In this document: one piece after another, positions 9,478 through 28,571 of the stretch
Layout: every line of letters starts with the position of its first letter
Numbering within the stretch: the first letter of the stretch is position 1
Assembly (NCBI GenBank): GCA_013822285.1
Contig: PNKF01000007.1
Span: forward strand, 1-33,413
Reading direction: 5' to 3'
From: Gemmatimonas sp.
GTDB taxonomy: Bacteria > Gemmatimonadota > Gemmatimonadetes > Gemmatimonadales > Gemmatimonadaceae
Length of the DNA: 33,413 nt
Made by a program: the position numbers and the translations under genes
The notes under the pieces: generated by a model
The model's input: only the letters and a program-made list of their open reading frames with translations
Told to the model about the DNA's origin: nothing
Database searches by the model: none

Positions 9478-9499
9478 TTGCGTGCTATGCACGTGCCGA

Positions 9500-9537
9500 G
9501 GATATGCATAGGAAATGCTGACTCTCTATGCATATCC
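9500..9537. promoter_or_regulatory. Exact 12-bp inverted repeat GGATATGCATAG-N14-CTATGCATATCC upstream of HTH/PIN pair
   Basis: arms 9500-9511 and 9526-9537, read directly. Confidence 0.75.
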
Positions 9538-9623
9538 GCAGAAATCGAATTGTCATGCGTTTCGATTGTTGCGGTTGTGTCGTTTGTTTCGAATAATAGG
9601 AGGTACCCTCCACTCCCAGCGCC

Positions 9624-10070
9624 GTGCCGGACACCCTCGATCTCCCCACGAGCGCAGATATCGAGCTCGCACGCCATGCCGCTCGGCGGCTGGCGAATTC
9701 GCTGCGGGCACACACTGACGGAACGGTCACGATCTCCACCGACATCGATGGAGAACAACCGGTCGTGCTTCCGCGCCGAGCGGCGCAGATGCTCGTGGAA
9801 CTGCTGGCGCAGATGGCAAACGGCAACGCCGTGACGCTCGTCCCCGTGCACGAACGTCTCACCACCCAGCAGGCCGCCGACCTGCTCAATGTCTCGCGTC
9901 CGTTCCTCGTGAAGCTCGTCGAGACCGGAGCGATTCCGTACGAAATGGTGGGGACGCATCGGCGGCTGCGCGCCGAGGATGTGTTTGCGTATCGGCGGCT
10001 GCAGGAGCGGAAGTCGCGCGGTGCGCTGGCCGAGCTCTCCGCGCTCGATCAGGAGCTAGGGTTCGGGTAA
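9624..10070 (+). CDS. excisionase-type HTH DNA-binding protein, putative antitoxin
   Basis: LTTQQAADLLNVSRPFLVKLVETGAIPYEMVGTHRRLRAEDVFAY. Confidence 0.85.
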   Translation: MPDTLDLPTSADIELARHAARRLANSLRAHTDGTVTISTDIDGEQPVVLPRRAAQMLVELLAQMANGNAVTLVPVHERLTTQQAADLLNVSRPFLVKLVETGAIPYEMVGTHRRLRAEDVFAYRRLQERKSRGALAELSALDQELGFG

Positions 10071-10634
10071 GTGGCATTCATCGTCGTCTACGAAGCGAAT
10101 GTGCTGGTGCCAGCACGCCTGCGCGATATGGTGATGCGAATTGCGGAGAGCGGAATCGTGCGCGCCCGCTGGAGCGATGACATCCTCGACGAGTGGCGGA
10201 GGGCGCTCACTCGGAGATTTCCCGAACTGAAGGGCGATCAATTGCGTCGCTACCGGAGCGCGATGGTCAATGCCGTGCCGGACTGCCTGGTCAGCAACTA
10301 CCAGGGATTGGGCGCGGACCTGGACTTGGTTGATGAAGCTGACCGGCACGTAGTAGCAGCGGCAATTCGCGCCCAGGCGCAGCTGATCGTCACGTACAAC
10401 CTACGCCACTTTCCCGAGCACGCGCTCGCAAAGTACGACATTGAGGTCAAGCATCCTGATGAGTTCGTGCTGGATGCGATTGACCTCTACTCTGGGCGCG
10501 TGTCGAGCATGATCCAGCAGATGAGCGATAATCTGCGGAATCCCGCGCAAACTGTTGATCAGGTGCTCGCGACGCTTCAAGGGCACCAGCTCACGCAATC
10601 GGTGGCGAAGCTACGCGAGCAGGTCGGCGACTAG
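10071..10634 (+). CDS. PIN-domain protein, putative toxin
   Basis: GTG start directly after HTH stop; VVYEANVLVPARLRD, DEADRHVVAAAIRAQAQLIVTYNLRHFP. Confidence 0.8.
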   Translation: MAFIVVYEANVLVPARLRDMVMRIAESGIVRARWSDDILDEWRRALTRRFPELKGDQLRRYRSAMVNAVPDCLVSNYQGLGADLDLVDEADRHVVAAAIRAQAQLIVTYNLRHFPEHALAKYDIEVKHPDEFVLDAIDLYSGRVSSMIQQMSDNLRNPAQTVDQVLATLQGHQLTQSVAKLREQVGD

Positions 10635-10693
10635 GGCTCCAGTCCCAATAGGAGCGGAATTAGATGAGCCAGAGATGCTGAAGGCCGCCCACG

Positions 10694-11434
10694 TCAACAA
10701 CGAAGGTTCGCTGCTGACATTGTGCCTCGGTAGTTGCCGTCTACCACGATTGCTCCGGCAGTGCGCATGTAGTCGAACCAGAACTGCTTCAACCTCGCCG
10801 CACGTGGAGTGCCCACGTCCACGCCAACGGCGACGAAGCATGCTCCCCGCAGTGAAGGAACGAGGCCCGCGTCCGCGCGCTGGCGTATCCAAGTCGCCCC
10901 AGGAATCGCGTTAGATCTGCTGAGATTCAGCTCCGGCGTGTCGTGAATCATGTCCGACAGCAGGATAAGCAGCGTCTCACGGCCCGACGCGGGTTCGATG
11001 TAGTCGCTCACCCTGGTCAGAAACGCAAAAATGTCAGTGTGCCGAATGCGTGAGATCCCAGCGGTGTCAGTGAAAACCTGCGCCGCACTCCGGAACGCTG
11101 ACTGCACGGCGCGCTTGCGACGTTCTTCGCGGTTAGAGGGAGCCTGTCCCGAGCGCAGCGCAGGGATGCTATCCCGGAACTGCCGAACATTGTCGAGCGG
11201 TGATTGGAGGACCTCGACAATCTCGACGCGGTCGCCATACGACGCCTGCTGTAGCAATGCATCGAGGAACTGACGCATGTCGGCCAGCTGTTGCGCCGTC
11301 CGCGAGCCGCTACGGTCAACACCGATGATGTAGTGACGAGACTTTGCCTGGCCCTGCGCCTGTGCTGGGGAAACAGCGAGAGACACGAGCAGAAGAGCGC
11401 CTGTGAGCGCCACGCGGGGGTGTAATGCGATCAT
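10694..11434 (-). CDS. secreted VWA-like domain protein
   Basis: signal peptide ...SLAVSPAQAQG; MIDAS-like VDRSGS; LLILLSDM. Confidence 0.65.
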   Translation of the reverse strand: MIALHPRVALTGALLLVSLAVSPAQAQGQAKSRHYIIGVDRSGSRTAQQLADMRQFLDALLQQASYGDRVEIVEVLQSPLDNVRQFRDSIPALRSGQAPSNREERRKRAVQSAFRSAAQVFTDTAGISRIRHTDIFAFLTRVSDYIEPASGRETLLILLSDMIHDTPELNLSRSNAIPGATWIRQRADAGLVPSLRGACFVAVGVDVGTPRAARLKQFWFDYMRTAGAIVVDGNYRGTMSAANLRC

Positions 11435-13053
11435 GCCGCGACCAAGCGCTGCGTGTCGAGCTCGCGGTCTACGCTGTACAGCGTGCCCCCAAGCGAGCGC
11501 AGCTCCGACACGTTCGAGTCAAAACCGTCCGGCTTGACCAAATCGGTGTCGTTGCCTGGCGTCGGTAAGATCAGAGGTACGTCTCGCCGAAATGCCGCAA
11601 TCGACGTCGGGTCCAACCCACGCAGCACAGCGTTCCTTGCACGCCAGCGTGGGATGATTGACTCGAGTCTCGAACGCTTGGCTTCGAGAGTCGAGAGCGG
11701 GTCTGATCGCAGTAGGCTGTTCAGCCGCGCAATCGCACGATCTCCTTTCATCAGGTGGTCGTGCGCGAGTGCGCTCTGACGGACGAGCGACTCGGTCAGG
11801 CGCGCGACGCGCTCCTTCAAGCCGCGGAGCTCCGGATGCTCACCCATGGTGTCCGCGATGTCTCGCGAGTCGCTCATGAATCCAAGCACTAGCGCGAAGC
11901 ACACGAGGCTGAGATTGAGGACCAGGATTGTAAAGTTATTCGCCTCGATCGTTTGTGCGAAACCAAGCGTGTTCTCGAGGCGGCTCTGGTTTGCGGTCGC
12001 CTCTTCAAGCAGCAGGGCTCTGTCTGATCCGAGGATCTCCCCGCGGGCCGAACGCGCCGCGTTCTCCGTGTTGATGCGCTCGACAGCGGCAGTGGCAGCC
12101 TTGAGGCGCTCTGCGACTAGCGAGCTCGCGCTCCCACGCGAGGCATAGAGGAACCAAATGACGGCGAATGTGCCGAGCAGGGCAATCCCGAACATCACCC
12201 ACTTCTGTCTGTGCAGAGAGGCGATGGACCGGGAGGCGAAGGGGTAATCCACGGGCTTCAGGGCCACGATGGGTCGCAGGGACGTGCCTAGCGACTTCGC
12301 GAGAATGTAGAGCAAGACTACCACGACGAGAGCGAGCATCGAGGCTTCGAAGTGCGAGATGGCATCGATGAGCGCAATCTTCGGGCCTGCGAGTGGGCCA
12401 CCTGCAGCGACGTCCTGGAGGATTCCTGAGAGTTCGGCTTCTACGTCCGCATTGATGGGCCAGATGACACGGAATACGGGTTGGTTCGCGATGAACTCGA
12501 CCGTGATGAGCATGAACGCGAGAAAGTGGGCCCACCACTTTGCAATGTAGGCGTTGTAGCGTACTGGTCCTTGATTTGCGGCAGTCTCGGCGCGGATGTC
12601 CTCCATCCGCTCCTCGGCTTCTCGAATCTGCGTGCGCGCGAGCCTCATCTCGGTGATCGACGCACGAGCCCCAGAAACCGCCTTGCCGAGTTCCTCTGCG
12701 CAGCCGTCGATCGCGTCCTGAAACTTGGTGTGAATACGCCGCGGCCACCGCTGCCAGAGTTCGCCGCAGCGCTTCAGCAGCACTTTCTCCGGCGAGAGCA
12801 GCTCCTCGTTGACTTCAGCCAGTGTCGGAAGGTTCTCGTGCGCCCATTGTTCGGCGTACGCGTCGGCCTCCTTCTCGATCTGTGATACTTCGATGGCGAA
12901 CCAGACATCTACCGACTTGGTGATGTCGTGGACGCCAGAGAATGTCGAAGTGCCTTCGTCCGCGTCGGTCGAGGGAGGAAGGGTTGCGGCTGTCGCGGGG
13001 ACTGCGGTGGCGTCACCGGCAGCGACGTGTTCAATCGGCAGTGGGATGCTCAT
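11431..13053 (-). CDS. multi-pass membrane protein, about 4 TM with long helical segments, unknown function
   Basis: TM-like segments WWAHFLAFMLITVEFI, MLALVVVVLLYILA, WVMFGIALLGTFAVIWFLYA, FTILVLNLSLVCFALVLGFM; start taken at MSIPLPIEH; ATGA overlap with the VWA gene. Confidence 0.7.
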   Translation of the reverse strand: MSIPLPIEHVAAGDATAVPATAATLPPSTDADEGTSTFSGVHDITKSVDVWFAIEVSQIEKEADAYAEQWAHENLPTLAEVNEELLSPEKVLLKRCGELWQRWPRRIHTKFQDAIDGCAEELGKAVSGARASITEMRLARTQIREAEERMEDIRAETAANQGPVRYNAYIAKWWAHFLAFMLITVEFIANQPVFRVIWPINADVEAELSGILQDVAAGGPLAGPKIALIDAISHFEASMLALVVVVLLYILAKSLGTSLRPIVALKPVDYPFASRSIASLHRQKWVMFGIALLGTFAVIWFLYASRGSASSLVAERLKAATAAVERINTENAARSARGEILGSDRALLLEEATANQSRLENTLGFAQTIEANNFTILVLNLSLVCFALVLGFMSDSRDIADTMGEHPELRGLKERVARLTESLVRQSALAHDHLMKGDRAIARLNSLLRSDPLSTLEAKRSRLESIIPRWRARNAVLRGLDPTSIAAFRRDVPLILPTPGNDTDLVKPDGFDSNVSELRSLGGTLYSVDRELDTQRLVAA

Positions 13054-13230
13054 AGGCGGGCGCGGCGTTCCGAGTCGGGGGGAGGTTGCGACCGAACCTA
13101 CGACCGGGGACTGACACCGATCATTCGTTCGCTTCACGGCTAGAAAGTGAAGCCGTGATTCCTCGCCCGCTAGGACGCCGGCTGCCGATGACCTAGGTCG
13201 TTTTCTGGAGAGCCATTACGCTCGAGGCGC

Positions 13231-13485
13231 TCAGGCCGCCGAGCCCTTCTCCCGCAGCTTCTCATACAGCCCAGCCAAATCGAGCAACACCCTCTTCAGC
13301 CCCTGCTTGGTCTGCGGATTGTTTAGCGCCTGCGCGCTCATAGCAGAGTAGGAGTCCAGCTGCACCGTCATGTAGCTGACGGCAACCGACGGAACGGAAG
13401 AATGGATCATGCATCTCAGAAGTGCAGGGCTAGGCGACACGTTCCGAGGCGAGTCTCCAGTTCTGACGTCTTCTAATACGGTCAA
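13231..13485 (-). CDS. small hypothetical protein, possibly a gene remnant
   Basis: 84-aa ORF; C-terminal LDSYSAMSAQALNNPQTKQGLKRVLLDLAGLYEKLREKG looks protein-like. Confidence 0.4.
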   Translation of the reverse strand: MTVLEDVRTGDSPRNVSPSPALLRCMIHSSVPSVAVSYMTVQLDSYSAMSAQALNNPQTKQGLKRVLLDLAGLYEKLREKGSAA

Positions 13486-13546
13486 GCCTTCCGATTTCTG
13501 TGCGCGGTGAGAGCCTCGATTGACTACGCCTGCATGATCGAGCGTT

Positions 13547-16500
13547 TCACCGATGCCGCTCTGCTTCGAGCAACGTCCTCACGTACGTGGCTGCATCCTC
13601 CTGAAATACTATGTTCCGCCCGAGCATCGCTGCCTTGTCCTGGTTCCACTGCAGTTGCATCGTCGCCGACGGCGTATTCGACACAATGAACGAATCCAGT
13701 CGCACCGCCGGATCCCCCAACCGGGCCTCGATCTCCTTCACCGTCTCGTGGAACAGGATCTTCGGATCATCCCACGACAGGTTGCGAATGCCCTTGGGGT
13801 CCACGAACACCACCCGCTGCTTACCATCCTCAATCACCCAGAGAATGAAGTCTGGGTGAAAGTTTCCCGCCTCGAAGAACCCGACTCCGCGTCCTCGGCT
13901 CAGGTTGCGCAGAAGGTAGAGCTCGCGGGAGGCAAAGAACGCCGTGTTCGCATCATGGAACGCCTTGAGATCCTCCACGAACTGCCGCTCCCCTTTATTC
14001 AGCGGCGCGGGGCTGATCTCCACCACGTTGGTGTCGAGGTACAGCAGCGGCTGGTACAGATGCTTCCCGAACCACACGGCCTTCATCCCCCTGAACTCCC
14101 ACGGCTTCATCTCGCCCCGCTCGATCGACGCCTTGAGTTCCTCCAGCTTGGCGACGATCTCCTCCTGCGATTTGTCTATAAGTATCCGATAGTAGCCGTC
14201 GTTGGGCGTCTCGCGCACGCCGAGGAAGTTTGGGTCGTCGGCCTCGAGGTCGCGATACTCCAGGTGCGGCAACTCCCAGTCTCGCTTCTTGAAGGTGTAG
14301 TACCGCTCGGTGTACTTCCGCAGCAGCGCCAGCGCGATCTCTTCCCACACGCGGACCTTTTCGAACCCGCTTCCGGACAGCTCGGCGGGCGGGATCTGTA
14401 AGCGGTACCAGCTCGTGTCGGCCAGCAGCGCGGCAATCCCCGCTCGCGTGAGGTTCAGGTTGTACCACCCGCGCTCCGCCTTGAACCGCTCTAGCTCGAA
14501 GTACAGGCGGTCCAGGTCGAGGAATGCAACGTGCTTCGGGGACAGGTGGGTCTCGTGCTTGGCCCCATCGCCGTCGCCGCCCTGCAAGCCCAGCGATCCG
14601 ATGGCGCGGATCTTCGGGTACCAATCGAGCACCAACCGGTTCTCGTGTAGTTGCTTGGCCTCGGATGGCCGGGTGAGGTCCGGTGGCGCCACCGTGGGAA
14701 TCGGCGCCAGCTTGCGGAAGGCGTCGCCGAACTCGGTGCTGACGCCGTTGATGGTCTTCTTGAGGCGCACCGTCTTGAGTCGCTGCGTGCCAAGGTTCTT
14801 GATCACCGGCAGGAGGAACTCCACGCGCTCCTCGTTGGACGGCAGCCCTTCCTCCTCCAAGAAGTCGCGGAACTGCGCCATATAGTCGGCATGCACACCG
14901 AAGATCCCCAGCGTCTCCAGCACCGCGATGTGCCGCGGGCGCTCGACACCCTGCGGAAGCTCGGTCTTCGCGCTACGCTTGAGGCTCATCCCGTACCCCT
15001 TCAGTCGCACGCCGCGGCCGAAGAGCTGGATGATCTGTGCTCCCTCACCCTTGCCGACGTTCATCAAGCCCATCGTTGACACGCGCCAACTGCTCCAGCC
15101 CTCGGTGAACTTCTTGGAGCCGATGAGCAGGTTGACCGACGACTCCGGCGCGTTGATGCCGTGGAATAGCGACGTCGCAAAGTCGCGCTCCCCCGTAGCG
15201 AGACCCTTCTCCTCGCAGAGCTTCACCAGCTTGGCGTCATCGCCGACGTTGATCACACCAAAGGGTTCGTTCTCAGCGCCGAGTCGCAGGGCGATCTCTC
15301 CCGTGGCGCCCTTCAGGTTCTCGACGTAGAGCAGGCCGCCGGCCGGCGCATTGAACAGCGTCGCCAGCGTGTCGTCGAAGATCTGCGACGGCGTCAGCCC
15401 GCTCGTATTGAGAGAGGCGAACCGACCAGCGAAGAGATCGCGTCCGGTTGACGTGATCAATCCCTCGTGGAGCACTCGACGAATACGCTCCGTGCTACCC
15501 GCCCGGTCCGCCACGTATCGGGCCATGAACTGCAGAATCTCCACGATGTCCGTGGCATCGCGCGTGGCGAGCGTAGCCGTGACGCTACCGCCCACGAACA
15601 CCCAGAGCGGCCGCTCGATGTTGAACGGCCTGAACGCACCCGTGTGCTCGCGGTACAGCCGCTGCTGCTGGTAGAACGTCAACAGGCAGGCCGTGAGGTA
15701 TAGGTCCTGATGGCTGGCCTGCGTGTCGGCGTCGAGGTTGAGGATCTGGTAGTCCTTTCCGAACCCGTCGCCGTAGAAGTACTTGTACGAGTAGTCCACC
15801 AGCGTGCTCTTTGCGTACAGCGCGGTGAGCGCGGCGCTCCCCTTCACGGCCTGGCCGAAGGTGGCGGAGTACTCAAAGGAGAAGCCCTTCTCGCAGAGCT
15901 TCTCGCGGGCCTTCATCCACGCGCCCTCCTTGCCCCCGCTGGCGCCGCGGTGCCCTTCGTCCACCAACACGAGGTTTTTCCCCTCGAAGGCATCGATGGC
16001 GATGGTCTTCTCGCCCATCTCCTCGCGCAGGCGCGTGACCTCGAGAATCTCCACCGCCTGTCCGCTAAACAGGCCGCGGCCGTCCTTGTTGAACAGCTCG
16101 GCGGCGATCCCCGCCGCCTCGAACTCCCGCAGGTGCTGCTGCGAGAGCCCCTCGTTGGGCGTGAGCAGCAGGATGCGGTTCAGCTCGCGTGTGCGCCCGT
16201 GCGTGGCCAAGGCGTGCTGGTACTGGAGGATGTTGGCGTGCATCAGCAGCGTCTTGCCGCTGCCGGTGGCCATCCAGAACGCCAGCTTGTTGAGCTGCGG
16301 CCACGCCTCGGCCGATTCATCGAACGGAGCAATCTGATCCGGCTCAGGCTTGTCCACGTTGTACGCGGCCACCTGCCCGTTGAGCGCCGCCAGCAACGCC
16401 TGGGCGTCGGTGAAGTAGCGGTCGAGGTAGATCTCCGTGAACAGCAGACTCAGGTACTGGAAGTACTTCCAGACGAGCGGGTCCTCACCGCGCGTCAACC

Positions 16501-16828
16501 GTCGTTCGTTGAGGCGCTGCGTGTGGCGCACGATGTGCTGGTCGTAGCGGAGCAGGTCATCCGTGCTCAGCTGCGTGAGATTGAAGAACTGGGTGGTCAG
16601 CGCGTGGTGGAAGCGGTGGACGTTGTTCTCGTCCATTCCCTCAAGTGCTTCGTCGCGCAGGTGCGCCGCCAGCTCCTCGAAGCGCTTCACGTTGAACAGC
16701 GAGAGCATCCACTGGTTGAGGACCAGCTTGTACGGAAAGGGAATCTGTGGCTGGGTCGCGGCGCGGCGGGCCCTTGGGGCGGGGGCTGGGGCGGCGGCAC
16801 CTGCCGCGCGCGGTCGTCCTCTAGGCAT
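13547..16828 (-). CDS. res: type III-like restriction subunit Res (DEAD/DEAH helicase with C-terminal nuclease)
   Basis: [38 protein letters not shown]-terminal [23 protein letters not shown] resembles PD-(D/E)xK. Confidence 0.9.
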
Positions 16829-19800
16829 CAGCTCTCCGTCCCCTCAAACATCAGTCGATGGAAGTCTTCCTCGATGAGCCGCACCTTCCAGCGGTCATCG
16901 GGCGTCTTCAGGTTCTCGAGGTTGTTGCCGCCGTTCACATAGATGAGGTCGAACTCGCGGTCCTTGGAGGTGTAGCCTTGCTTGGTGAACCACTCGTCGA
17001 GGACCAGGTTGTCCTGCTCCGGGTCGCCGGTGAACTTGCGCCAGATGACCAACGCCTTGCGACCGTCGGGCGTGGTGCCGGTGACGGTGCGGAACCAGTA
17101 CGGGCCAGCGGCATCCTGCTTGATGCGGGCATCCTTGAGCTGCAGGCGCCCCTCGCCGTCGCGCACGAAGGCCGCAGAGAACGTCTGCGGTGCGGCGATG
17201 TGGCGGACCGTAAGGCCGAGCAGCCAGTTGAAGGTCTCCAACAGGTCGACGTGCACCTCGCGGCTCTCGTCGGAGCCTGGGCGCTTGACCTTGAGCTTGT
17301 AGGCCGTTGGATCGCTGAAGGCCTGCACGTTGAGTAGCGACTGCGAGCCGCGCGTTTCGACATTGAGCATATAGCGCAGGACGTACTGCTCCGTGAGCCC
17401 GTCCGGGCCTTGGGCTTCGGGCGAGTCGAGGAGCAGCTGCTGCGTGTCGCTGCGGCGTGTCTCGAGGTTGTTGAGCGCGTCTTCGTACGACTCCAGCCGC
17501 ACGACCTTCACGATGCGTGGCGCGCGCTCCGATTCCTCGGCCGTCGCGAGGCGCTTGGGCTTGCCGTCCTTCCACTCGGGGGTGTAGGTGACCTTCTTGA
17601 TGCGCGGCAGGAGGACGGTGTCGAAGTAGTCGCCCATTTCGACGAGGATGAACTTGCGGCGGCCACCGTCTTCGCGGTTGAGGTTGATGACGGCGTGGCC
17701 GGTGGTTCCGGAGCCGGCGAAGTAGTCGAGCGTAGTTCCGTCCTCGACGAGGCCACTCCTGAGCGCATCCTCGACCGAGAAGATGGATTTGGGGTACGAA
17801 AACAGACTGCGGTCGCCGAGAATCGCCAGCAAGAGGTTTGTGCCGTGGGACGACGCATCATACTTTGAGTCTCCCCAAATGGTCTTTGGCTTACGACCCG
17901 GCTTATAGAAGTCCTTTAAGAGCACGGTGTAGCGCCCGTCATTAACCCTAACAACGAAATCTCCTCGCGCACCTGCGTGATTGATCTTCTCGCGATCCGA
18001 CCAGCGCCATACTCTCCGTCACCCAGCCGAATCAATGGGCATGATAGCTATTGCCCCGGGAGAGTCTACCGTGGACACTCGATGCGTTTGTGGGTCGAAA
18101 TAGAGCGGGAACTCTGAGTTGGGCCGTTCCTCAGGAGTTGAGAGTCCGCCGCTTCGGCGAAACGGCAAGAGTCTAAATGATTCCTGCGCTTCGCCATGCT
18201 GGTAAGAGGCAGCTTGCTCTTCGGTCAGGGGCAAGTCGAAGATGTTTGCCTGGCTAGAATCACGTGCGTATGTGAGATAATAGTCGTGGCTCGTCGCGAA
18301 GAAGCTGTTGATTCCACGACCACGCGGGTTGGACTGCACAACAAGCGGTCCGAGCGCGTTGTCGGCTCCAAAGATCTCGTTGAGAGCTACAGTTAGTCGC
18401 GCCATCTCCGCGTCGTCAATCGCAAAGTACGAGACGCCACTTGGTGCCAGGAGTGTGCGAGCAATCCGTGCACGAGCCTCCATCATTGCGAGCCAGCTCG
18501 AGTGCCGATAGAGGTTCTTGTAGACGAAGGACTCCTCTGACGTGTTGTACGGGGGATCCGCGTACACCATATCGAGCTCGTCGGAGAAACGCTGGCCAAG
18601 GAATTGAAGAACTTGGAAATTCTCGCTGTGAAACAGCACACCATCCGTCTGCTCGTCAACGTCGCGCAGCGCGTCTAACAGCCGAGCCGTGAACCCCGGT
18701 GGAAAGTGTCCCGAATCCACCACTAACGACGGCTGCCCCTTGAGGAACGCCACCGTCAACGGCACACTGTATGCCGTCGCTACAAGATCCCCAGCAATCG
18801 CGTCAATCGCATACAACCGCACCCACTCCTCCCGCTGCGCCTCGTTCGCCGCAATCTCTGCGTAGAACTCCTCCGGAATCACCCCCAGCCGGATGCACCA
18901 CGACGTTTCCACTACGAACTTCTTCTTGAGCCACAACTTCTTCTGGAAGTCCTCTAACTGCGCCAGGAAGTCAATGATCTTCCCCGCAATGCGCCGCACC
19001 ACCTTGATCTTCGACAGGTACTGCTCCACCCGCGGCGCCGTCTCGCTCTCCACGTCGTCGAGGTGCATCACCTCGTTCTTGATATAGAAGTCAAGCTCCC
19101 GGCGCAAAAAGCCGCCCAAGTCCTTGTGAATGAAGTAGTCGAAGGTGTTGCGGTCCGAGTACCCCTTGAGATGCTTGGCCAATACTGTGCGCCTGGGGTC
19201 CTTTTCGGTCGGCGCCAGCGCCTTGAGCGCCGTTATCCAGTCGGCAAACTCGGCATCAGCATTCGCCAAGACCGTCGCTTCCGCCTCGCTGTTCAGTTCC
19301 GCCTGCTTCTTCGCATCGGGCAGGTAGGTGAACCGCACGACCAGCTCGCCATTCTCCAGCGCCAGCGGCTGCTCCGTCGCCAGCTTGAACCGCCGCTCCT
19401 TCCCCTCCGCCGCTTTCACATTGCCGTGCTCGCCCTCAGCGGCGTCCACCAGCCGAAAGTGCACGCGCATCGGATTGGCTTCGTCATCGGGCCGCAGCCG
19501 GAACGCATAGTCGCGCAGGTACTCGCTGGTCTTGATGTAGTACTGGTCCTTGTTGGCCCAGTGCAGTGTGACTTCTTCGCCCTCGTACGGAATGGCGTAC
19601 ACGCCCGGCTTGTACACGCGCTTGGCGAGGTAGTCGCCTTCGGAGTAGTAGCGGCGGAAGAACGCGTACAGGTGGTCGTACACCTCACGCTCCAGCGCCT
19701 TGACGTCCACCGCTTCGGCGGCAAGGCGAGCGCGCAGCTCCTTCACCTTCGGGGAATCGTCCGGGCTCAACCCCGCCGCTTCCACCCCGGCACTCACCTT

Positions 19801-20010
19801 GGCCAGCTCCTTTTCGAGCTCCGCCTTGTCCGCCGACTGGTATTGCGCAAACGCCGCCTGCACCTGGGGCAGCAGGTCCTTATCCAGGAACTGGCTCACC
19901 TCGGCGCTCTTGGCGTGCATCACACGATAGAGGCCAAAGTCCAAGTCCGGCTGGTCGAGCTGGAAGAGTTCCTGCAGGAGGGCCTTCAGCTTGGTGTACT
20001 GCGTACTCAT
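16828..20010 (-). pseudogene. mod: large type III-like N6-adenine DNA methyltransferase (Mod), interrupted by one in-frame TGA at 18019-18021; ORFs 18019..20010 and 16828..17925 are the two halves
   Basis: MVYADPPYNTSEESF in first half; [21 protein letters not shown] in second; both same frame; sequence between halves is [31 protein letters not shown] with no other stop. Confidence 0.85.
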
Positions 20011-21365
20011 TGATTGTCCGTTGAGAAGTATCTGCGCTGTGGGTCCTGCGGTCCGGTGCCGATTTCCCGAATCAAGCCGAGGTCGATCAACGTGGCCAGC
20101 CGTGTGCGCGTCGCCCGCGGTGTCAGGCCGATGTCAGCAGCGATCTCCCGGGTCGCTCGGCCATCCGGTGCCTTGACGAAGGCGATGATGCGGCGGTCCG
20201 TCTCATCCAGTCGCGGCGCCGTCACCTGAGCCGAGCGCAAGGTGACGCGGAACCTGAGGCCGACCTCCTCGAACTCTGGCGGCGCGAGCCCGGCATCACG
20301 ACAGGCTCCGATCATCCGCTGCACGCCACTCCCCCATTGCTCGACCAGACCGAGCTCCTGGAGGACCCGGCCCAGGACACGGTTGCGCAGCTTCGACACC
20401 CCGAGCGGGAGGTCCGCGACCGTCAGTCCGAAGGGCAGGAGCCCCGGGTTCTCGATCTCCATCCGGTCGTCGTAGATCGCCAGACGAATCGGTGCGCCTG
20501 ATTGAGAGTAGTCGGCGTGCGCGACCGCATTGACGATTGCCTCGCGCACCGCCAGGGGCGGGAATGACCAGCGATCAACGCGTTTCGTGCGACCGATCGT
20601 CGCTCCGCGTGTCGCGTGCTTCTCCACAAAGCCAACGGCGTCCGGAATCGCGGTCAGCAGCGACCCCTTGAGGTCGGTATGGTCCGTGAGTGAGGCACGG
20701 TCGATCCCGCGGAAGCGTCCCGCCTGGATCCAGGCATCCGGGAAGTGCGCGAGCCGATCAACGCCAAAGAGCAGCACCCCACCTACCGTGGGGACGCTGC
20801 GGCCTTGATGCGTGGTCGTGAGCCGGAGCGTGTCGAGATCCCGGCGGGTGAGCCGTCGCAGCGGAGCGAACGACTCGGAAGCAGCTCGGAAGTCGATCGC
20901 TTCCGAGTCGAGGTCCGGCAACGGGCGCTCGTCGAAGGCCTCGCCACGGGCGAAGCGGCGCATCTCCGCAATCAACGCCTCGTCGGCTCGGCGGTTCGTC
21001 GAGCCCACCCGCACGTAGGTCCCGGCCACCGGTCCGGCCTTGGTGAGGTAGTGCGGACGGCTGGCACTGGGATACACCTGCACCGCGAGGACCTGTGCCT
21101 TTCGGTACGAGAGCACCTCGAGATCGGGCAGTAGGCGCGGAGTGATCGCATCGGAGATCAGGCTCGCCAGCCGTTCCTCAACGGCCATCGGATCCACCAC
21201 GCCGCGCACGTGCCGAGTGCCATCCTCGACGCCAATCAGGACGGTGCCCCCGGACGTGTTGGCGAAGGCGACGATCGTGCGCAGCACGCCGTCGGGCGAC
21301 GACAGGTCCCGTTTGAACTCGAGGGTCTTGCTTTCGGGGCGCCGCAGCGCGTCGAGGAGGTTCAT
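20007..21365 (-). CDS. AlbA_2 (Schlafen-like) / ATPase-domain transcriptional-regulator-like protein with C-terminal wHTH
   Basis: ESKTLEFKRDLSSPDGVLRTIVAFANTSGGTVLIGVEDG; AVREAIVNAVAHADYSQSGAPIRLAIYDDRMEIENPG; C-terminal ATREIAADIGLTPRATRTRLATLIDLGLI. Confidence 0.9.
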   Translation of the reverse strand: MNLLDALRRPESKTLEFKRDLSSPDGVLRTIVAFANTSGGTVLIGVEDGTRHVRGVVDPMAVEERLASLISDAITPRLLPDLEVLSYRKAQVLAVQVYPSASRPHYLTKAGPVAGTYVRVGSTNRRADEALIAEMRRFARGEAFDERPLPDLDSEAIDFRAASESFAPLRRLTRRDLDTLRLTTTHQGRSVPTVGGVLLFGVDRLAHFPDAWIQAGRFRGIDRASLTDHTDLKGSLLTAIPDAVGFVEKHATRGATIGRTKRVDRWSFPPLAVREAIVNAVAHADYSQSGAPIRLAIYDDRMEIENPGLLPFGLTVADLPLGVSKLRNRVLGRVLQELGLVEQWGSGVQRMIGACRDAGLAPPEFEEVGLRFRVTLRSAQVTAPRLDETDRRIIAFVKAPDGRATREIAADIGLTPRATRTRLATLIDLGLIREIGTGPQDPQRRYFSTDNQ

Positions 21366-21367
21366 TA

Positions 21368-21412
21368 CTCGGAAGTGTACTCTGAAGTATCGGAAGGCGC
21401 CAGACTTCCGAG
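21368..21412 (-). promoter_or_regulatory. Inverted repeat CTCGGAAGT ... ACTTCCGAG directly upstream of the AlbA_2 gene start
   Basis: arms 21368-21376 and 21404-21412; extra TCGGAAG at 21390-21396. Confidence 0.6.
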
Positions 21413-21471
21413 TCGCGCCGTGTCCGGCTGAGTGGAAGGTTGAGGGTTGGCCGAGCGCAACTCGCCGCCGC

Positions 21472-24363
21472 TCATACGACCGCCCAGCGGACTGCGAACA
21501 GCGTCTCCGACTCGGTCCGTTGGGCCAGCCTCCGCTCTAGTTCGTCAATCAGCCGGTCGCGCTTCGCGAACACCTCGTCCTCGGCCGCGAAGATCTCCTG
21601 CCGCTGCTGGCGCTGCTGCCTCTCCAGCTTCTGAATGCGCTCCTGGATGGCGTGCTGTTCCGCAAGTGTCACGGCCTGCCGCGCCTCGCGGCGCAGCACC
21701 TTGATCCGCTCTTTGGTGTCGTGCAGCGCCTTCTCGGCAGCGAACACCAGATCCTCAGCCCAACGCTCGAGCTTCTCGCGCGCCGCCTGGAAGTGGGTGT
21801 TGTTCTGTTCTAGCGACCGGCTGAGCGTGGCCCGGGCGTGGCGCTCCGCCTCCAGCCGCAGGCGCTCGGCCAAAGTATCGGGAATCGTGTACGGGTGGGC
21901 CGTGCCGGCGAGGGCGAAGAGCTTCTCCATCGTCTCTTGGTCGATTGGCGCGTCGGTGTCGTCGAAGCCAGTGAACAGCAGGTACTCCTCGCGCTCGTAC
22001 GAGTCAACGGCCAACCGCGTCAGCGCGAGGTATCCGGAACGGCCTCGAAGTGCCTCCACGGCCGCTACCCGTGTCGGATGCCGCGTCACGTCGAAGACGA
22101 TCTCGGCGTCGGGCGTAAGCAAGGATTTCGCGGACTCCACCACGTGCTCACCGAGCGGGTGTGACAGGCGGTAGAGAAAGCGACTCCCCTCGTCAGCCGT
22201 TGGCTCGCCCTCGCTCACGCGCGGATGAGTTCGGGAGATCAAGTGATACCGGCCCGTCGCGATCTCCGTCGTGGGGGAGCGCAGCAGGTCGAAGGCAAGC
22301 GCCGAATCGTCGAATCGGGCGGCATCGTGTAGCATCCAGCGGGTGAGCGCCCAGAAACGCCGCCCGACGCGGTCCAACTGCGCCTGCGTATCGGCCAAGC
22401 GAAGTCGCAGGCGCTGGTGCACGTCTTCGTCGAAGTGCTCGAGCAGGGCGCGGCGCGTCTCGTCGAGGCGGGAGCGGATCTGCTCGTCCAGTTCGTCCTG
22501 CAGTCGCTTGAACGCCGCGTCAATCTCCGCGGGAGAGCGGCATTCCTGATAGATGGCGAGGATGCGCTGCTCGAAGTCCACGCCACTGTCGATGCTGCCG
22601 AGTACGTCGTCCGAGGCACCGAACACGCCGCTGAAGAGTGAGAACTTCTCGGTGAGCAGCTCGAGCACGCGTCTGTCGGCCGCGTTGCGCTCGTTGAGGA
22701 AATTGATGACGACCACGTCGTGTTGCTGACCGTAACGGTGGCAGCGCCCAATGCGTTGCTCGATACGCTGCGGGTTCCAGGGCAAGTCGTAGTTCACGAC
22801 CAACGAGCAGAACTGCAGGTTGATCCCCTCGGCGGCCGCCTCGGTGGCCAAGAGGATGCTGCCGTGGTCGCGGAAGTGTTCGATCAGCGCCGTGCGGAGA
22901 TCCACCGCCTTGGAGCCCGAGATGCGGTCGCTGTCGCGGTTCGTCTCCAGCCAACGCTCGTAGATGGCGGAGGCATCGGGGCCGCCGTTGCTGCCGTTGA
23001 AGACCACGACTTGGCCGGCGTAGCCATTGGACTCGAGGAAGCTCTGCAGGTAGTCCTGCGTGCGCCGCGACTCGGTGAAAACCAGCGCCTTGCGTGCGGC
23101 GCCAGTCTTGGCCATCTCGCTGAAGCCCACGTCGAGGGCGGTCAGCAGCGCGGTCGACTTGCTGTCCACGCCAATCTGTCGCGCCCGGTCGGCCAGGCGC
23201 CGAAGGATCTCAATCTCCTCCCGGAGCTGTTGCCGATTGATGACCGCTGGCCGCTCAGCGATGCTGGGATCTTCGTCATCCGCTTGCAGGATCTCATCGA
23301 GGAGATCGTCCTCGAGTTCCTCGGCTTCAATCAGCCGTTCCGCGAATTCTGGGTCATTCCCGACTTTCTCGTCGCGGAGCGATTCCAGCCGTTCGCGAAG
23401 TGCATCCAGCGTGGCCGCGATGGCCGGCGACGACGACGCGAGCAGCTTGCGGAGGATCAGCGCCGTCAGGTGGCGCTGCCGCTGCGGCAGGGCGTAGCTG
23501 TTCTCGCGTTGCAGGAAGTCGGAGACCGCCTCGTAGAGCGCGTGTTCGTCGTCCGTCGGGGAGAACGGACGCGTGATCGGCAGTCGCTCGGTGTACCTCA
23601 CGTACTCCGTGACTTGGTTGCGGAGCGTTCGTGTGCAGAAGGTGGCGAGCCGAGCGCGCAGGGCGTCGAGATTGCTACCGGCGCTGGCGTAGAGCGACTT
23701 GAACGCAGTGACGTCACCGAACAGCGTGTCGTCGATCAGCGTGGAGAGGCCGTACAGTTCCAGCAGTGAGTTCTGGAGGGGGGTGGCCGTGAGGAGCAGC
23801 TTGCGACAGTCCTCCGTGGCCCATCGGATGCCTTGGCCGACCTTGTTGCTCGGACGGTAAGCATTGCGGAGTTTGTGCGCTTCGTCAATGACGACGAGAT
23901 CCCAGGCCACGCCCTTGAGGTCGTCGCGCAGCGCGTTGGCGAAGTGGTACGATAGGACGAGGATGTTGCCACTCGCCAGCGGGTCGCGGCTGGCGCGTCT
24001 TGCTTCGCGCACCGATGTGGCATCGAGCACCTTCACAGGCAGGTGGAACTTCTCGGTCAGCTCGAGCGCCCACTGCTTGCGAATGGAGGCCGGACAAATG
24101 ACGAGCAGTCGCCGCTTCCGCTCAGCCCACAGCTGGCAGAGGACGATGCCCGCTTCGACGGTCTTGCCGAGGCCGACTTCGTCGGCGAGGATCACACCCT
24201 TGGACAGTGGCGACTGCAGCGCGAAGAGGGCGGCTTCGATCTGGTGCGGATTGAGATCGACCGCGGCGTCGAAGAGCGCCGTGGAGAGGCGGTCGATGCC
24301 GCCGGCGGCGCGTCGGGTCAGGTCGTGGGCGTAGTACTTGGCGTGGTGTGGTGTCAGGGGCAT
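21472..24363 (-). CDS. SNF2/RapA-like helicase
   Basis: GVILADEVGLGKTVEAGIVL, LVVIDEAHKLRN, LLLTATPLQNSLLELYGL, LLATEAAAEGINLQFCSLVVNYDLPWNPQRIEQRIGRCHRYGQ; start taken at MPLTPHHAKYYAHDL. Confidence 0.92.
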   Translation of the reverse strand: MPLTPHHAKYYAHDLTRRAAGGIDRLSTALFDAAVDLNPHQIEAALFALQSPLSKGVILADEVGLGKTVEAGIVLCQLWAERKRRLLVICPASIRKQWALELTEKFHLPVKVLDATSVREARRASRDPLASGNILVLSYHFANALRDDLKGVAWDLVVIDEAHKLRNAYRPSNKVGQGIRWATEDCRKLLLTATPLQNSLLELYGLSTLIDDTLFGDVTAFKSLYASAGSNLDALRARLATFCTRTLRNQVTEYVRYTERLPITRPFSPTDDEHALYEAVSDFLQRENSYALPQRQRHLTALILRKLLASSSPAIAATLDALRERLESLRDEKVGNDPEFAERLIEAEELEDDLLDEILQADDEDPSIAERPAVINRQQLREEIEILRRLADRARQIGVDSKSTALLTALDVGFSEMAKTGAARKALVFTESRRTQDYLQSFLESNGYAGQVVVFNGSNGGPDASAIYERWLETNRDSDRISGSKAVDLRTALIEHFRDHGSILLATEAAAEGINLQFCSLVVNYDLPWNPQRIEQRIGRCHRYGQQHDVVVINFLNERNAADRRVLELLTEKFSLFSGVFGASDDVLGSIDSGVDFEQRILAIYQECRSPAEIDAAFKRLQDELDEQIRSRLDETRRALLEHFDEDVHQRLRLRLADTQAQLDRVGRRFWALTRWMLHDAARFDDSALAFDLLRSPTTEIATGRYHLISRTHPRVSEGEPTADEGSRFLYRLSHPLGEHVVESAKSLLTPDAEIVFDVTRHPTRVAAVEALRGRSGYLALTRLAVDSYEREEYLLFTGFDDTDAPIDQETMEKLFALAGTAHPYTIPDTLAERLRLEAERHARATLSRSLEQNNTHFQAAREKLERWAEDLVFAAEKALHDTKERIKVLRREARQAVTLAEQHAIQERIQKLERQQRQQRQEIFAAEDEVFAKRDRLIDELERRLAQRTESETLFAVRWAVV

Positions 24364-24436
24364 CGGCGGGGTCGCGAGGGGCGGCTGGCTCCAGTCGGTG
24401 CCGAGTGGAACGTGAAGTGTGGCTAAGTTTCCCGCA

Positions 24437-25297
24437 ATGCTTCGCACGCTTGAAATGCTCGACCTCATCTCAGAGGCCCTAGTCCGCCCCGGCACCCCCC
24501 CCGCTCGCTCCCAAGCCCGCGACCTCATCGCCTGGGTCCTCGACAAGCCGAGGTTCTGGCCCAGCGCCAACCCCGACCACGAGCTCACACCGGCCGAGGT
24601 CGACGCGATCCAACAGGCCGCCGAGAAGCTGAAGCAAGGCATGCCCCTCCAATACGCCGTCGGCAAAGCCCCCTTCCGCCACCTCACGCTAAGGGTCACC
24701 CCTGACACCCTGATCCCCAGGCCCGAAACCGAGCTCCTCGTCGAACTCGTCATCGCCGCCCAAAGAGGCGGCAAGGGCACCGTCGTGGACGTGGGAACGG
24801 GATCAGGCGCCATCGCCCTAGCCCTGGCTGCCGAGAGTGCCTTCGAGCGCATCGTCGCCATCGACATCTCGGAGAAGGCCCTAGAAGTCGCCAAGTCCAA
24901 CCTCCAGGCCATCCCCGAAGACCGTCGGCCCAGACTCGACTTCCGCCTCGGCGACGTCCTCACCCCCATGCAGGGCGAAATCGTTGAAGCCGTAGTCTCC
25001 AACCCCCCGTATATTTCCCCACCTGAGCTGCCCGAACTGCCCCCCAACGTCCGCAACTGGGAGCCCCACTCGGCTCTGTTTGCGGACAAGGACGGGATGG
25101 CGGTCATCGAAAAGCTCATCAGCCAGGCGGGAGACATCCTCCAGCCCGGCGGATTACTTGCCATGGAAGTGGACAGCCGACGCTGCGACCTCGCAGTCCA
25201 AGCGGTCCAAGCCGACGACCGATTCACGGACGTCGAACATCGACTCGACTTGACCGGCCGCCCGCGTTTCGTGGTGGCCCGACGAAAGGAGCGTTAG
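24437..25297 (+). CDS. prmC: release factor glutamine methyltransferase
   Basis: IPRPETELLVELVI, VVDVGTGSGAIALALA, VVSNPPYI. Confidence 0.95.
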   Translation: MLRTLEMLDLISEALVRPGTPPARSQARDLIAWVLDKPRFWPSANPDHELTPAEVDAIQQAAEKLKQGMPLQYAVGKAPFRHLTLRVTPDTLIPRPETELLVELVIAAQRGGKGTVVDVGTGSGAIALALAAESAFERIVAIDISEKALEVAKSNLQAIPEDRRPRLDFRLGDVLTPMQGEIVEAVVSNPPYISPPELPELPPNVRNWEPHSALFADKDGMAVIEKLISQAGDILQPGGLLAMEVDSRRCDLAVQAVQADDRFTDVEHRLDLTGRPRFVVARRKER

Positions 25298-26370: not shown

Positions 26371-27924
26371 ATGAACCGCTTCCGCCTGCTCCCGCCGACG
26401 GCGCTGATCGCCATCGCGCTGCTCTCCGGCGCCTGGCTGCTGGGCCGCGCCCTCGACCGCGACGAACGCCGCTCCGAGGAAGGCGCGCGCTTGCTCGACG
26501 CCGTGATGGACCGCGTGCGCAACAGCTACGTGGAGCCTGTCGACGAAGAACAACTCTGGCAGGCCGCCGTCGCGGGCATGCTCGACGAACTCGGCGACCC
26601 GAACTCCGCCTACATCACGCCGGATCGCCTCGAGAGCCTGCAGCTCTCGGCCTCCAACGCCTACCGCGGCGTGGGCCTGAGCGTGGACGTCATCGATGGC
26701 TGGATCACCGTCATCCAACCGCGCGCGGGCTCTCCTGCTGAACGCGCCGGTCTGCAGACGGGCGATCGCTTGATCGAGCTCGACGGCAAGTCCATGCAAG
26801 GCTGGACCGTGCAGGAAGCCCGCGAGCGTCTGCGTGGCCCACTGGGCAGCACGGTGCGGCTCGTCGTCGAACGCGGGCAGGGCACGCGCATCACCGTCAC
26901 GCTCGAGCGTGCGGATATCCGCAATCGCGCGGTCACGCGCGCAGTCGTCCTCGACGGCGGCGTGGGCTACCTCGCGGTCACGACCTTTTCCGACTCCACC
27001 GAAGCCGAGTTGATCTCGATGGTGGATTCGCTGCGTCGTGCGGGCGCGACATCGTTGGTCCTCGACATGCGCAACAATCCCGGCGGGCTGCTCGAGCAGG
27101 GCGTCGGTGTGGCCGATCTCTTCTTGATGCCGGGACAGCAGATCGTCACCACCCGCGGGCGGTCGGCGAACGCGAACAAGACCTACGTCGATTCAACCGC
27201 TGAGCGATGGGGCGGATTGCCAATGGCTGTGCTGGTGAACGGTCTGACGGCCAGCGCCGCCGAGATCGTCGCCGGTGCCCTGCAGGATCACGACCGCGCC
27301 GTCGTGCTCGGCCGCGTCAGCTACGGCAAGGGCAGCGCACAAACGGTGTACCCGCTCGACAACGGCGCGGCGATCTCGCTTACCGAAGCGCGCTGGTTCA
27401 CGCCGCTGGGCCGCTCGCTCGAAGTCGCGCCGCCTGACGAAGAACCCCTCGCCGACGCCGACACCGCGCGCCCACTGTTCCGCACGGCCAGCGGTCGCAA
27501 GGTGTACGGCGGCGGTGGCATCGTGCCCGACATCGCCGTGGGCGACAGCACGCTCGACCCCAACGAGCGGCGTTTGCTCGCCGAGCTCGGGGCCGACGTG
27601 CCGCGCTGGCGCGAAGCGCTGACGGCCGAGGCCCGGGCGTTGGTGCAGGCGCGCGCCGTGCGCGACTCGATGTTCACCACGCGCCCCGAGTGGCGCGGAC
27701 GCCTGCAGACGCGCATGCGCGCGATGGGGCTGCGTTTCACCGCATCGACGTTCGCCGAGGCGAGTGCATTTGTGGATCGCCGCCTGGGCGACGAGATCGC
27801 GCGGCAGGGCTGGGGCGCGGCGTACGCGCAGCGGCGGCAGGTGCGCGGTGATGTGGTGGTGCAGCGGGCAGCGGAGTTGCTGCGCAAGGCGCGCGCGCCG
27901 CAGGATGTGTTCGTGGCGGAGTGA
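26371..27924 (+). CDS. S41-family C-terminal processing peptidase with PDZ domain
   Basis: PDZ GVGLSVDVIDGWITVIQPRAGSPAERAGLQTGD; LVLDMRNNPGGLLEQG; LTASAAEIVAGALQDHDRAVVLGRVSYGKGSAQT. Confidence 0.95.
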   Translation: MNRFRLLPPTALIAIALLSGAWLLGRALDRDERRSEEGARLLDAVMDRVRNSYVEPVDEEQLWQAAVAGMLDELGDPNSAYITPDRLESLQLSASNAYRGVGLSVDVIDGWITVIQPRAGSPAERAGLQTGDRLIELDGKSMQGWTVQEARERLRGPLGSTVRLVVERGQGTRITVTLERADIRNRAVTRAVVLDGGVGYLAVTTFSDSTEAELISMVDSLRRAGATSLVLDMRNNPGGLLEQGVGVADLFLMPGQQIVTTRGRSANANKTYVDSTAERWGGLPMAVLVNGLTASAAEIVAGALQDHDRAVVLGRVSYGKGSAQTVYPLDNGAAISLTEARWFTPLGRSLEVAPPDEEPLADADTARPLFRTASGRKVYGGGGIVPDIAVGDSTLDPNERRLLAELGADVPRWREALTAEARALVQARAVRDSMFTTRPEWRGRLQTRMRAMGLRFTASTFAEASAFVDRRLGDEIARQGWGAAYAQRRQVRGDVVVQRAAELLRKARAPQDVFVAE

Positions 27925-27942
27925 ACGGCAACTGCCGTTCAC
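27921..27942. repeat. 10-bp-arm palindrome GTGAACGGCA-AC-TGCCGTTCAC overlapping the S41 stop codon
   Basis: perfect arms, read directly; no T-tract. Confidence 0.7.
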
Positions 27943-27966
27943 CACGGAGACACGAAGACACGGAGA
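27942..27966. repeat. CACGGAGACACGAAGACACGGAGA-type dispersed intergenic repeat
   Basis: CCACGGAGACACGAAGACACGGAGA, related to a second copy at 29259-29286. Confidence 0.6.
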
Positions 27967-28119
27967 CTGCAGAAGAAGTGCTTTGGGGACCGCGCCGCTG
28001 CATCGGTGCGTGCGGAGTGCGTGGATCCGCCACCGGTGGCGATGCGCCGAGCGTCGATCGTCGCTACCCCTCCGCTATCGTCTCGGGGGTCGGCGCCCCG
28101 CCGGCACGATCGCGGCATC

Positions 28120-28148
28120 TTGCTTGTAATAACGCCACGCGTTACTAT
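28120..28148 (+). promoter_or_regulatory. Candidate higBA promoter (TTGCTT-N17-TACTAT) with imperfect palindrome AATAACGCcacGCGTTACT in the spacer
   Basis: TTGCTT 28120-28125, TACTAT 28143-28148, ATG at 28153. Confidence 0.55.
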
Positions 28149-28152
28149 TTCT

Positions 28153-28260
28153 ATGATTCGCAGCTTCGCAGACCGAGACACGGAGCGTCTCTGGGAACGC
28201 GAGCACGTCCGACTGGTGGACGGCAGCGTCGAAGACGTCGAGATCATCGACTACCACTAG
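28153..28260 (+). pseudogene. higB: HigB (RelE-superfamily) toxin remnant with internal in-frame deletion, 35 aa
   Basis: MIRSFADRDTERLWEREHVR resembles a HigB N-terminus; VEDVEIIDYH* resembles a HigB C-terminus; the core is absent. Confidence 0.8.
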
Positions 28261-28268
28261 AGGCAACG

Positions 28269-28571
28269 ATGGCCAAGAAGGTCGCACCGATTCACCCAGG
28301 CGAAGTGCTGCTGGAGGAGTTCTTGGTCCCCCTCGATCTCTCGCAGTATCGTCTGGCGCATTCCATCAGCGTCCCGCCGCGTCGCATCAATGAGATCGTC
28401 CATGGCGATCGGGCGATCTCTGCGGATACCGCGCTGCGACTGTCGCGCTTCTTCGGCAACAGTGCCGAGTTCTGGCTGAACCTCCAAGCGCGTTTCGACC
28501 TTGAGACTGAACGTGACAGGCTCGGGGCACGCTTGGAGCGCGAGGTCGAAGTCTTCGCTTCCGCGAGCTGA
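28269..28571 (+). CDS. higA: HigA-family antitoxin (XRE HTH)
   Basis: IHPGEVLLEEFLVPLDLSQYRLAHSISVPPRRINEIVHGDRAISADTALRLSRFFGNSAEFWLNLQARFDLE. Confidence 0.95.
   Translation: MAKKVAPIHPGEVLLEEFLVPLDLSQYRLAHSISVPPRRINEIVHGDRAISADTALRLSRFFGNSAEFWLNLQARFDLETERDRLGARLEREVEVFASAS

Follow-up and report, generated by a model that had tools for sequence, protein, structure and literature searches.

A two-gene envelope module of a predicted four-TM membrane protein and an exported VWA protein in Gemmatimonadota, with one copy inside a defence hotspot

Introduction

The VWA proteins of Tad pili (TadG, and CpaL of Caulobacter) carry an extracytoplasmic VWA domain with a canonical MIDAS (DxS/TxS/T, T, D), and CpaL has been put forward as a possible mechanosensor (PMC12607857). 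The same source proposes extracytoplasmic VWA domains as mechanosensors in Tad and type IV pili, and discusses a disulfide as important in PilY1. In the Bat/MoxR-VWA chaperones (BatA/B, RavA-ViaA, NorQD) a membrane-associated VWA fold occurs together with an AAA+ protein, and MoxR AAA+ proteins typically act with VWA proteins (PMC9976466, PMC13036017). The MoxR-vWA ternary conflict systems, in which a VWA protein encoded in a small linked gene set has a proposed regulatory role, depend on MoxR together with a third component, which is VMAP, iSTAND or FtsH, and contain effector domains (PMC7159879).

The locus described here lies on a stretch of 33,413 nucleotides from Gemmatimonas sp. (henceforth ‘the window’), which is a whole contig (G000:C7) of a draft genome that is 72% complete, and it encodes a four-TM (4-TM) membrane protein followed by an exported VWA protein. 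With TadG/CpaL the pair shares the extracytoplasmic VWA domain, the MIDAS and, in one of its two clades (clade B, see below), a link to Tad pili. Unlike TadG/CpaL, its VWA protein lacks a pilin module and is small, being either lipid-anchored or secreted; it is accompanied by an obligate 4-TM partner and is also found in genomes in which no Tad marker was detected. The clade-B pair is encoded in a Tad operon whereas the window pair is not, and the pair is not a Tad core component. With the Bat/MoxR-VWA chaperones it shares the VWA fold (4jdu), membrane association and, in clade B, an adjoining AAA+ gene, but its VWA protein is not TM-anchored, the AAA+ protein is not recognisable as a MoxR and does not occur in clade A, and the 4-TM partner has no Pfam family; the window contains no MoxR or DUF58 neighbours of the Bat aerotolerance operon type, and the pair is not a Bat operon. 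Nor is it a MoxR-vWA ternary conflict system: both have a VWA protein in a small linked gene set with a proposed regulatory role, but the pair lacks effector domains, the AAA+ is missing from clade A, and the VWA protein is exported. No AAA+ gene lies beside the window pair, neither of its proteins has a VMAP/iSTAND/FtsH or effector Pfam match, and its neighbours are Res and TA genes. The Zorya proteins ZorA/ZorB offer a further likeness, in that a long-helix protein of the inner membrane is combined with a partner facing the envelope, possibly in an anti-phage setting. ZorB is an OmpA-like peptidoglycan binder, whereas the partner in our module is a VWA domain, and neither protein has a ZorA/ZorB match in PADLOC.

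The analysis defines an obligate protein pair in a little-studied phylum, in which the VWA part has a known fold and the other partner has no named family, and so offers a clear case in which to examine how VWA/MIDAS proteins located outside the cytoplasm are coupled to a partner in the inner membrane. Should the Tad link described below be functional, the pair bears on the sensing of pilus contact; if its placement in a defence hotspot is functional, it may represent an envelope-level phage sensor.

Results and Discussion

The gene pair in the window

The original prediction described a membrane protein of 540 aa with about four TM segments and long helices, the stop of which overlaps the start of a signal-peptide-bearing VWA-like protein that keeps a MIDAS-like DRSGS. 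These features were borne out (Table 1): the membrane protein lies where it had been placed and its AlphaFold2 model is all-helical with four membrane-length hydrophobic helices, the ATGA overlap couples the two genes as claimed, and the VWA fold was matched in the PDB, with a MIDAS that is intact and invariant. The structure searches that had been proposed for both proteins gave a clear VWA fold for the one and no known family or fold for the 4-TM protein. The GC3 of the pair is low for this window (0.68-0.74).

Table 1. Positions of the gene pair, its sequence features and its neighbours in the window
Feature	Position	Strand	Basis
HTH_17 / PIN_3 toxin-antitoxin-like pair, convergent neighbour	9624..10634	+	Pfam
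Exported VWA protein (P0002), 246 aa, signal peptide without lipobox Cys	10694..11434	-	
C246, invariant, probable disulfide partner of C199	10697..10699	-	alignment
C199, invariant, probable disulfide partner of C246	10838..10840	-	alignment
MIDAS D161 (SDM)	10952..10954	-	invariant
MIDAS T133 with D134	11033..11038	-	invariant
MIDAS motif 1, D40-R-S-G-S44	11303..11317	-	D40/S42/S44 invariant in 31
ATGA stop/start overlap (translational coupling)	11431..11434	-	ORFs; tight pair spacing in relatives
4-TM inner-membrane protein (P0001), 540 aa, no known family	11431..13053	-	
TM4, residues 373-394; invariant N380	11872..11937	-	model, alignment
Predicted periplasmic antiparallel helical hairpin, residues 305-372	11938..12141	-	helices 271-337, 343-371; loop charges
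TM3, about residues 283-304, within continuous 67-residue helix 271-337	12142..12207	-	model
TM2, residues 235-264; H/K253, invariant G256 and R260	12262..12351	-	model, alignment
TM1, residues 172-197; E/D186 (27 E, 3 D of 30), invariant N190	12463..12540	-	model, alignment
117-bp fossil of type I HsdR 3' end	13244..13360	-	92% identical DNA, C-terminal coding end in genus-mate G129 (L103)
Type III restriction subunit Res, neighbour outside module	13547..16828	-	Pfam, PADLOC
Type III methyltransferase Mod, neighbour, in-frame TGA near 18019	16828..20010	-	PADLOC, frame check

Co-occurrence and distribution of the two proteins

In a survey of 395 Gemmatimonadota genomes, the 4-TM protein was present in 34. 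Strong VWA matches were found in 33 of these 34 genomes and in none of the 361 others (Fisher p = 2e-47), and in the single exception (G317) a contig end lies 129 bp away from the 4-TM match. At each locus examined, the VWA gene immediately follows the 4-TM gene on its strand, barring those where the contig stops short of it, and the two genes of relatives usually overlap or are separated by 7-44 bp. The near-perfect co-occurrence and the constant adjacency and order indicate that the pair is a genuine two-gene module; it is an undescribed one, as neither the 4-TM partner nor the module has a named family in the libraries searched. The 4-TM and VWA trees share the main clades and mirror the host families, a pattern indicative of largely vertical inheritance accompanied by many losses; they give no support to a phylum-wide spread as a mobile defence cassette. 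No relatives of the 4-TM protein were detected in 72,556 plasmids or 50,697 phages, and none of the VWA protein in plasmids or viral contigs. The pair has so far been found only in Gemmatimonadota; restriction to this phylum is not proven, since genome contigs outside it were covered by one scan with a pattern that favours clade B. One match in that scan carries the title Gammaproteobacteria (L072).

The VWA protein

The model of the VWA protein (pLDDT 88.8, pTM 0.84) has the Rossmann-like VWA fold, with 98 PDB matches at E<=1e-3 in Foldseek (probability 1.00), the top match being 4jdu, a Bacteroides aerotolerance (Bat-type) membrane protein. The Pfam VWA model (PF00092) scores the window protein at 14.2 bits against a gathering score of 23.8, which is a curation threshold and not a structural criterion, and 5 of 31 family members reach E<=0.01 with this model. 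Apart from this sub-threshold match, searches of Pfam, NCBIfam and PADLOC assigned the protein to no family. In the alignment, the MIDAS residues D40-x-S42-x-S44, T133 and D161 are invariant in 31 rows of relatives, which argues against a chance motif. A hydrophobic export signal is present in the VWA relatives, followed by a lipobox in 28 of 31 members by pattern matching and in 29 on visual inspection; it is missing from the window copy and from G196. We found no TM anchor after the signal peptide, and only the signal peptide precedes the VWA domain, with no pilin-like N-terminus of the TadG/CpaL type.

The 4-TM protein

The AlphaFold2 model of the 4-TM protein, built on a 30-row family alignment, is all-helical with a pLDDT of 87.4 and a pTM of only 0.59. 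It predicts, in order, a disordered segment (residues 1-38), cytoplasmic helices (39-72 and 87-160), TM1, TM2, a long helix that includes TM3 (271-337), a returning helix (343-371), TM4 and further cytoplasmic helices. A simple hydropathy cut-off used alone finds three TM segments in the window copy and four in most relatives. Loop charges (198-234 acidic in the window copy, 258-284 basic) fit an N-in/C-in arrangement for the first two loops, which would make the hairpin periplasmic; both ends of the protein are accordingly predicted to be cytoplasmic, with the modelled hairpin reaching about 50 A into the periplasm. Residues E/D186, N190, P192, F194, H/K253, G256, R260, R306 and N380 are conserved over 30 members, several of them within the membrane, and the window copy keeps E186, N190, N380, R260 and R306. 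No credible family was found for the 4-TM protein in Pfam, NCBIfam or PADLOC, with every relative also run against Pfam, and comparison with the PDB by sequence and by fold returned coiled-coil noise only (best fold E 0.018).

A proposed envelope sensor or transducer

We tentatively favour, at somewhat less than even confidence, a reading in which the pair is an autonomous and obligate envelope module that acts as a sensor or transducer and is not a defence-specific cassette. The 4-TM protein would be an inner-membrane protein whose two ends are cytoplasmic and whose helical hairpin extends into the periplasm, while the VWA protein would be exported, probably lipid-anchored in 28-29 of 31 members and free in the window copy, and would bind a divalent metal through its MIDAS and contain a conserved disulfide. 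Either the hairpin or a ligand in the envelope may serve as the docking site of the VWA protein, and a ligand or force acting on the VWA domain could be relayed, perhaps in this direction, through E/D186, N190, N380, H/K253 and R260 to the cytoplasmic coiled coil and the conserved C-terminal helices of the 4-TM protein. From there a lineage-specific cytoplasmic reader might take over the signal, a candidate in clade B being the AAA+ ATPase of the Tad operon. In the window, the module would have been captured in, or have survived inside, a defence hotspot. Since the 4-TM protein has no structural relative, the signalling role is drawn by analogy only, and a purely structural or chaperone role fits the pair as well.

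Two clades and the Tad-pilus operon

The family divides into clade B, consisting of families f5 and f7 (100% support), and clade A, consisting of the family of the window (f1) together with f4 and f6. Many clade-B pairs lie directly behind an AAA+ gene that closes a Tad operon of the order CpaB-RcpA-CpaE-CpaF-TadB-TadC-DUF192-AAA+, whereas in clade A the pair stands alone in varying surroundings; most copies outside Tad operons sit among ordinary or housekeeping genes. The AAA+ gene was absent from all 11 clade-A genomes and the Tad marker RcpC was not found in 9 of the 11, which argues that the pair is self-contained and seems to need neither. RcpC was also undetected in several clade-B genomes, probably as a result of fragmented assemblies. 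Conversely, the AAA+ gene was found in 47 genomes and sits in Tad loci also in families that lack the pair, indicating that it belongs to these loci and that the pair is an add-on, and in genus g110 the Tad locus is not followed by the pair, which is located elsewhere. A three-gene AAA+/4-TM/VWA module was rejected as the ancestral unit, given that the AAA+ gene is a Tad-operon gene with or without the pair and that no relatives of the pair were found behind it in the other families examined.

These arrangements bear on the main rival to the sensor/transducer reading, which is a chaperone-like role in the assembly or maintenance of an envelope machine, akin to MoxR/VWA or Bat systems, the VWA protein holding periplasmic clients that the membrane protein (with the AAA+ protein where present) would remodel; the machine would be the Tad pilus in the first place and another elsewhere. 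The position of the clade-B pair behind the AAA+ gene of the Tad operon, the association of pair and AAA+ gene across genomes (p=2e-12), the Bat-type protein as top fold match and the usual partnership of MoxR AAA+ proteins with VWA proteins (PMC9976466, PMC13036017) are all in keeping with such a role. We nevertheless consider it rather unlikely, because the AAA+ gene and the entire Tad operon occur without the pair in other families, all 11 clade-A genomes have the pair without the AAA+ gene, and the clade-B AAA+ protein has no clear MoxR match in Pfam (its best match, TIP49, scores 16.6 bits, below the cut-off).

Three further observations were made at these loci. An AAA+ ATPase of ~450-500 aa with no good Pfam match is a constant feature of Tad operon ends in Gemmatimonadota, beside DUF192 (L045:10458-11954, L111-L123). 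One single-contig genome carries two AAA+/4-TM/VWA sets ~17 kb apart (G125:C1:2055185-2058901 and 2071993-2075956), a lineage-specific duplication. At the non-Tad loci of f7 (L052, L055-L058, L064, L065) a short same-strand ORF, of 74 aa in most and with a weak DUF4398 match, lies upstream of the pair in 7 of 7 cases and is perhaps a third component.

The hotspot and a possible role in defence

The pair lies within a hotspot at about 9478-24436 of the window that contains an SNF2 helicase, an AlbA/Schlafen-type protein, Mod, Res, the pair and a PIN TA. Its placement between a TA pair and an RM operon, as originally described, stands as far as the HTH_17/PIN_3 pair and the type III Res and Mod genes are concerned, but two details qualify it. 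Firstly, the pair and res are separated by about 490 bp containing the HsdR fossil, which means that the pair does not merely form the end of the RM operon; the fossil marks earlier RM turnover at the site. Secondly, mod is one frame broken by a single in-frame TGA (18019-17926 (-), between ORFs 20010-18019 and 17925-16828), which is either a nonsense mutation or a draft-assembly error and means that the ‘RM operon’ may be inactive. The minus-strand genes at 16828-25227 have an unusual order, comprising a DrmD/BrxH-like SNF2 helicase, an AlbA/Schlafen and HATPase_c_4 protein, and the type III Mod and Res, and are possibly a composite DISARM/RM-like system.

None of the 13 genus-mates searched has the pair. 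The closest of them (G129) has the same flanks (a metallophosphatase and a YdeI/OmdA-type gene; prmC and an S41 peptidase), which there enclose a type I RM system, a PIN TA and transposases, and G073 fills the hotspot with JAB, ThiF and metallo-beta-lactamase genes. In more distant genus-mates prfA lies directly beside or close to prmC with no island. In the window, G129 and G073, by contrast, a variable defence hotspot interrupts the prfA-prmC neighbourhood, and the G073 genes (L104:10390-13996; a JAB-domain protein, a large ThiF protein and a metallo-beta-lactamase-fold protein) are a defence candidate of the ubiquitin-like conjugation type.

The original prediction considered an envelope-linked sensor/effector cassette possible, on account of the TA and RM neighbours. 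The coupling and the envelope link have held up well (33 of 34 genomes, adjacent genes); the link to defence is found locally, at the window hotspot, but not family-wide. The co-occurrence of the pair with defence genes across genomes, which had been proposed as a check, gave the same divided picture: besides the window hotspot, two further clade-A loci have PADLOC-type neighbours (AbiU- and HEC-05-like in G159; PDC-S37- and PDC-S11-like in G032), but there was no significant enrichment over the family. Defence-type neighbours numbered 7 of 95 near ten clade-A pair stretches compared to 2 of 95 in controls (p = 0.17; PADLOC models at E<=1e-20, with regions from some of the same genomes as controls), where the 7 and 2 were read from family tallies and not from member lists, and the 7 include generic WYL and kinase models. 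PADLOC-DB contained 0 families for either protein at E<=0.1. Most of the family is a conserved operon unrelated to defence islands, which is not the case for the window copy.

The pair is therefore not supported as a defence family, the position beside RM genes being weak evidence for a defence role, while recruitment of the window copy to defence is possible. An anti-phage sensor/effector, in which the VWA protein would detect perturbation of the envelope by a phage and the 4-TM protein would act as a pore or relay that arrests growth, appears quite unlikely: the differently filled hotspot between conserved flanks, the neighbours in G159 and G032, the absence of the pair from the genus-mates and its low GC3 speak for it, but they are set against trees that follow host families with no sign of wide horizontal spread, the lack of relatives in the plasmid, phage and viral collections, the non-significant neighbour enrichment, and clade-B contexts of pilus or housekeeping genes. 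We regard as more doubtful still a phylum-restricted trans-envelope VWA switch, composed of the VWA lipoprotein and a 4-TM transducer with an intramembrane acidic/Asn set, that would be portable, joined to Tad pili in certain lineages and to phage-defence hotspots elsewhere, and would report envelope contact or phage injection.

Divergence of the window copy

The window copy is the most diverged of the family, having lost its lipobox and forming the longest branch in both protein trees (1.6 and 1.93). In line with this long branch, its 4-TM protein deviates at residues 198, 365, 473 and 476, where the columns are otherwise identical in 29 of 30 members. The missing lipobox and the long branches suggest that its function may have changed or decayed. 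That it is a drifting relic of an envelope module of the family, retaining little function, is nonetheless improbable: these same features and the adjoining HsdR fossil and stop-interrupted mod would fit such decay, but both ORFs are open and coupled, the MIDAS and the cysteines are intact, and so are E186, N190, N380, R260 and R306. Beyond the hotspot, between the S41 peptidase and the next gene, the window carries a HigA-type antitoxin (TIGR02607, E 9e-32) at 27921-28571 (+), which is absent at that position in G129 and G073.
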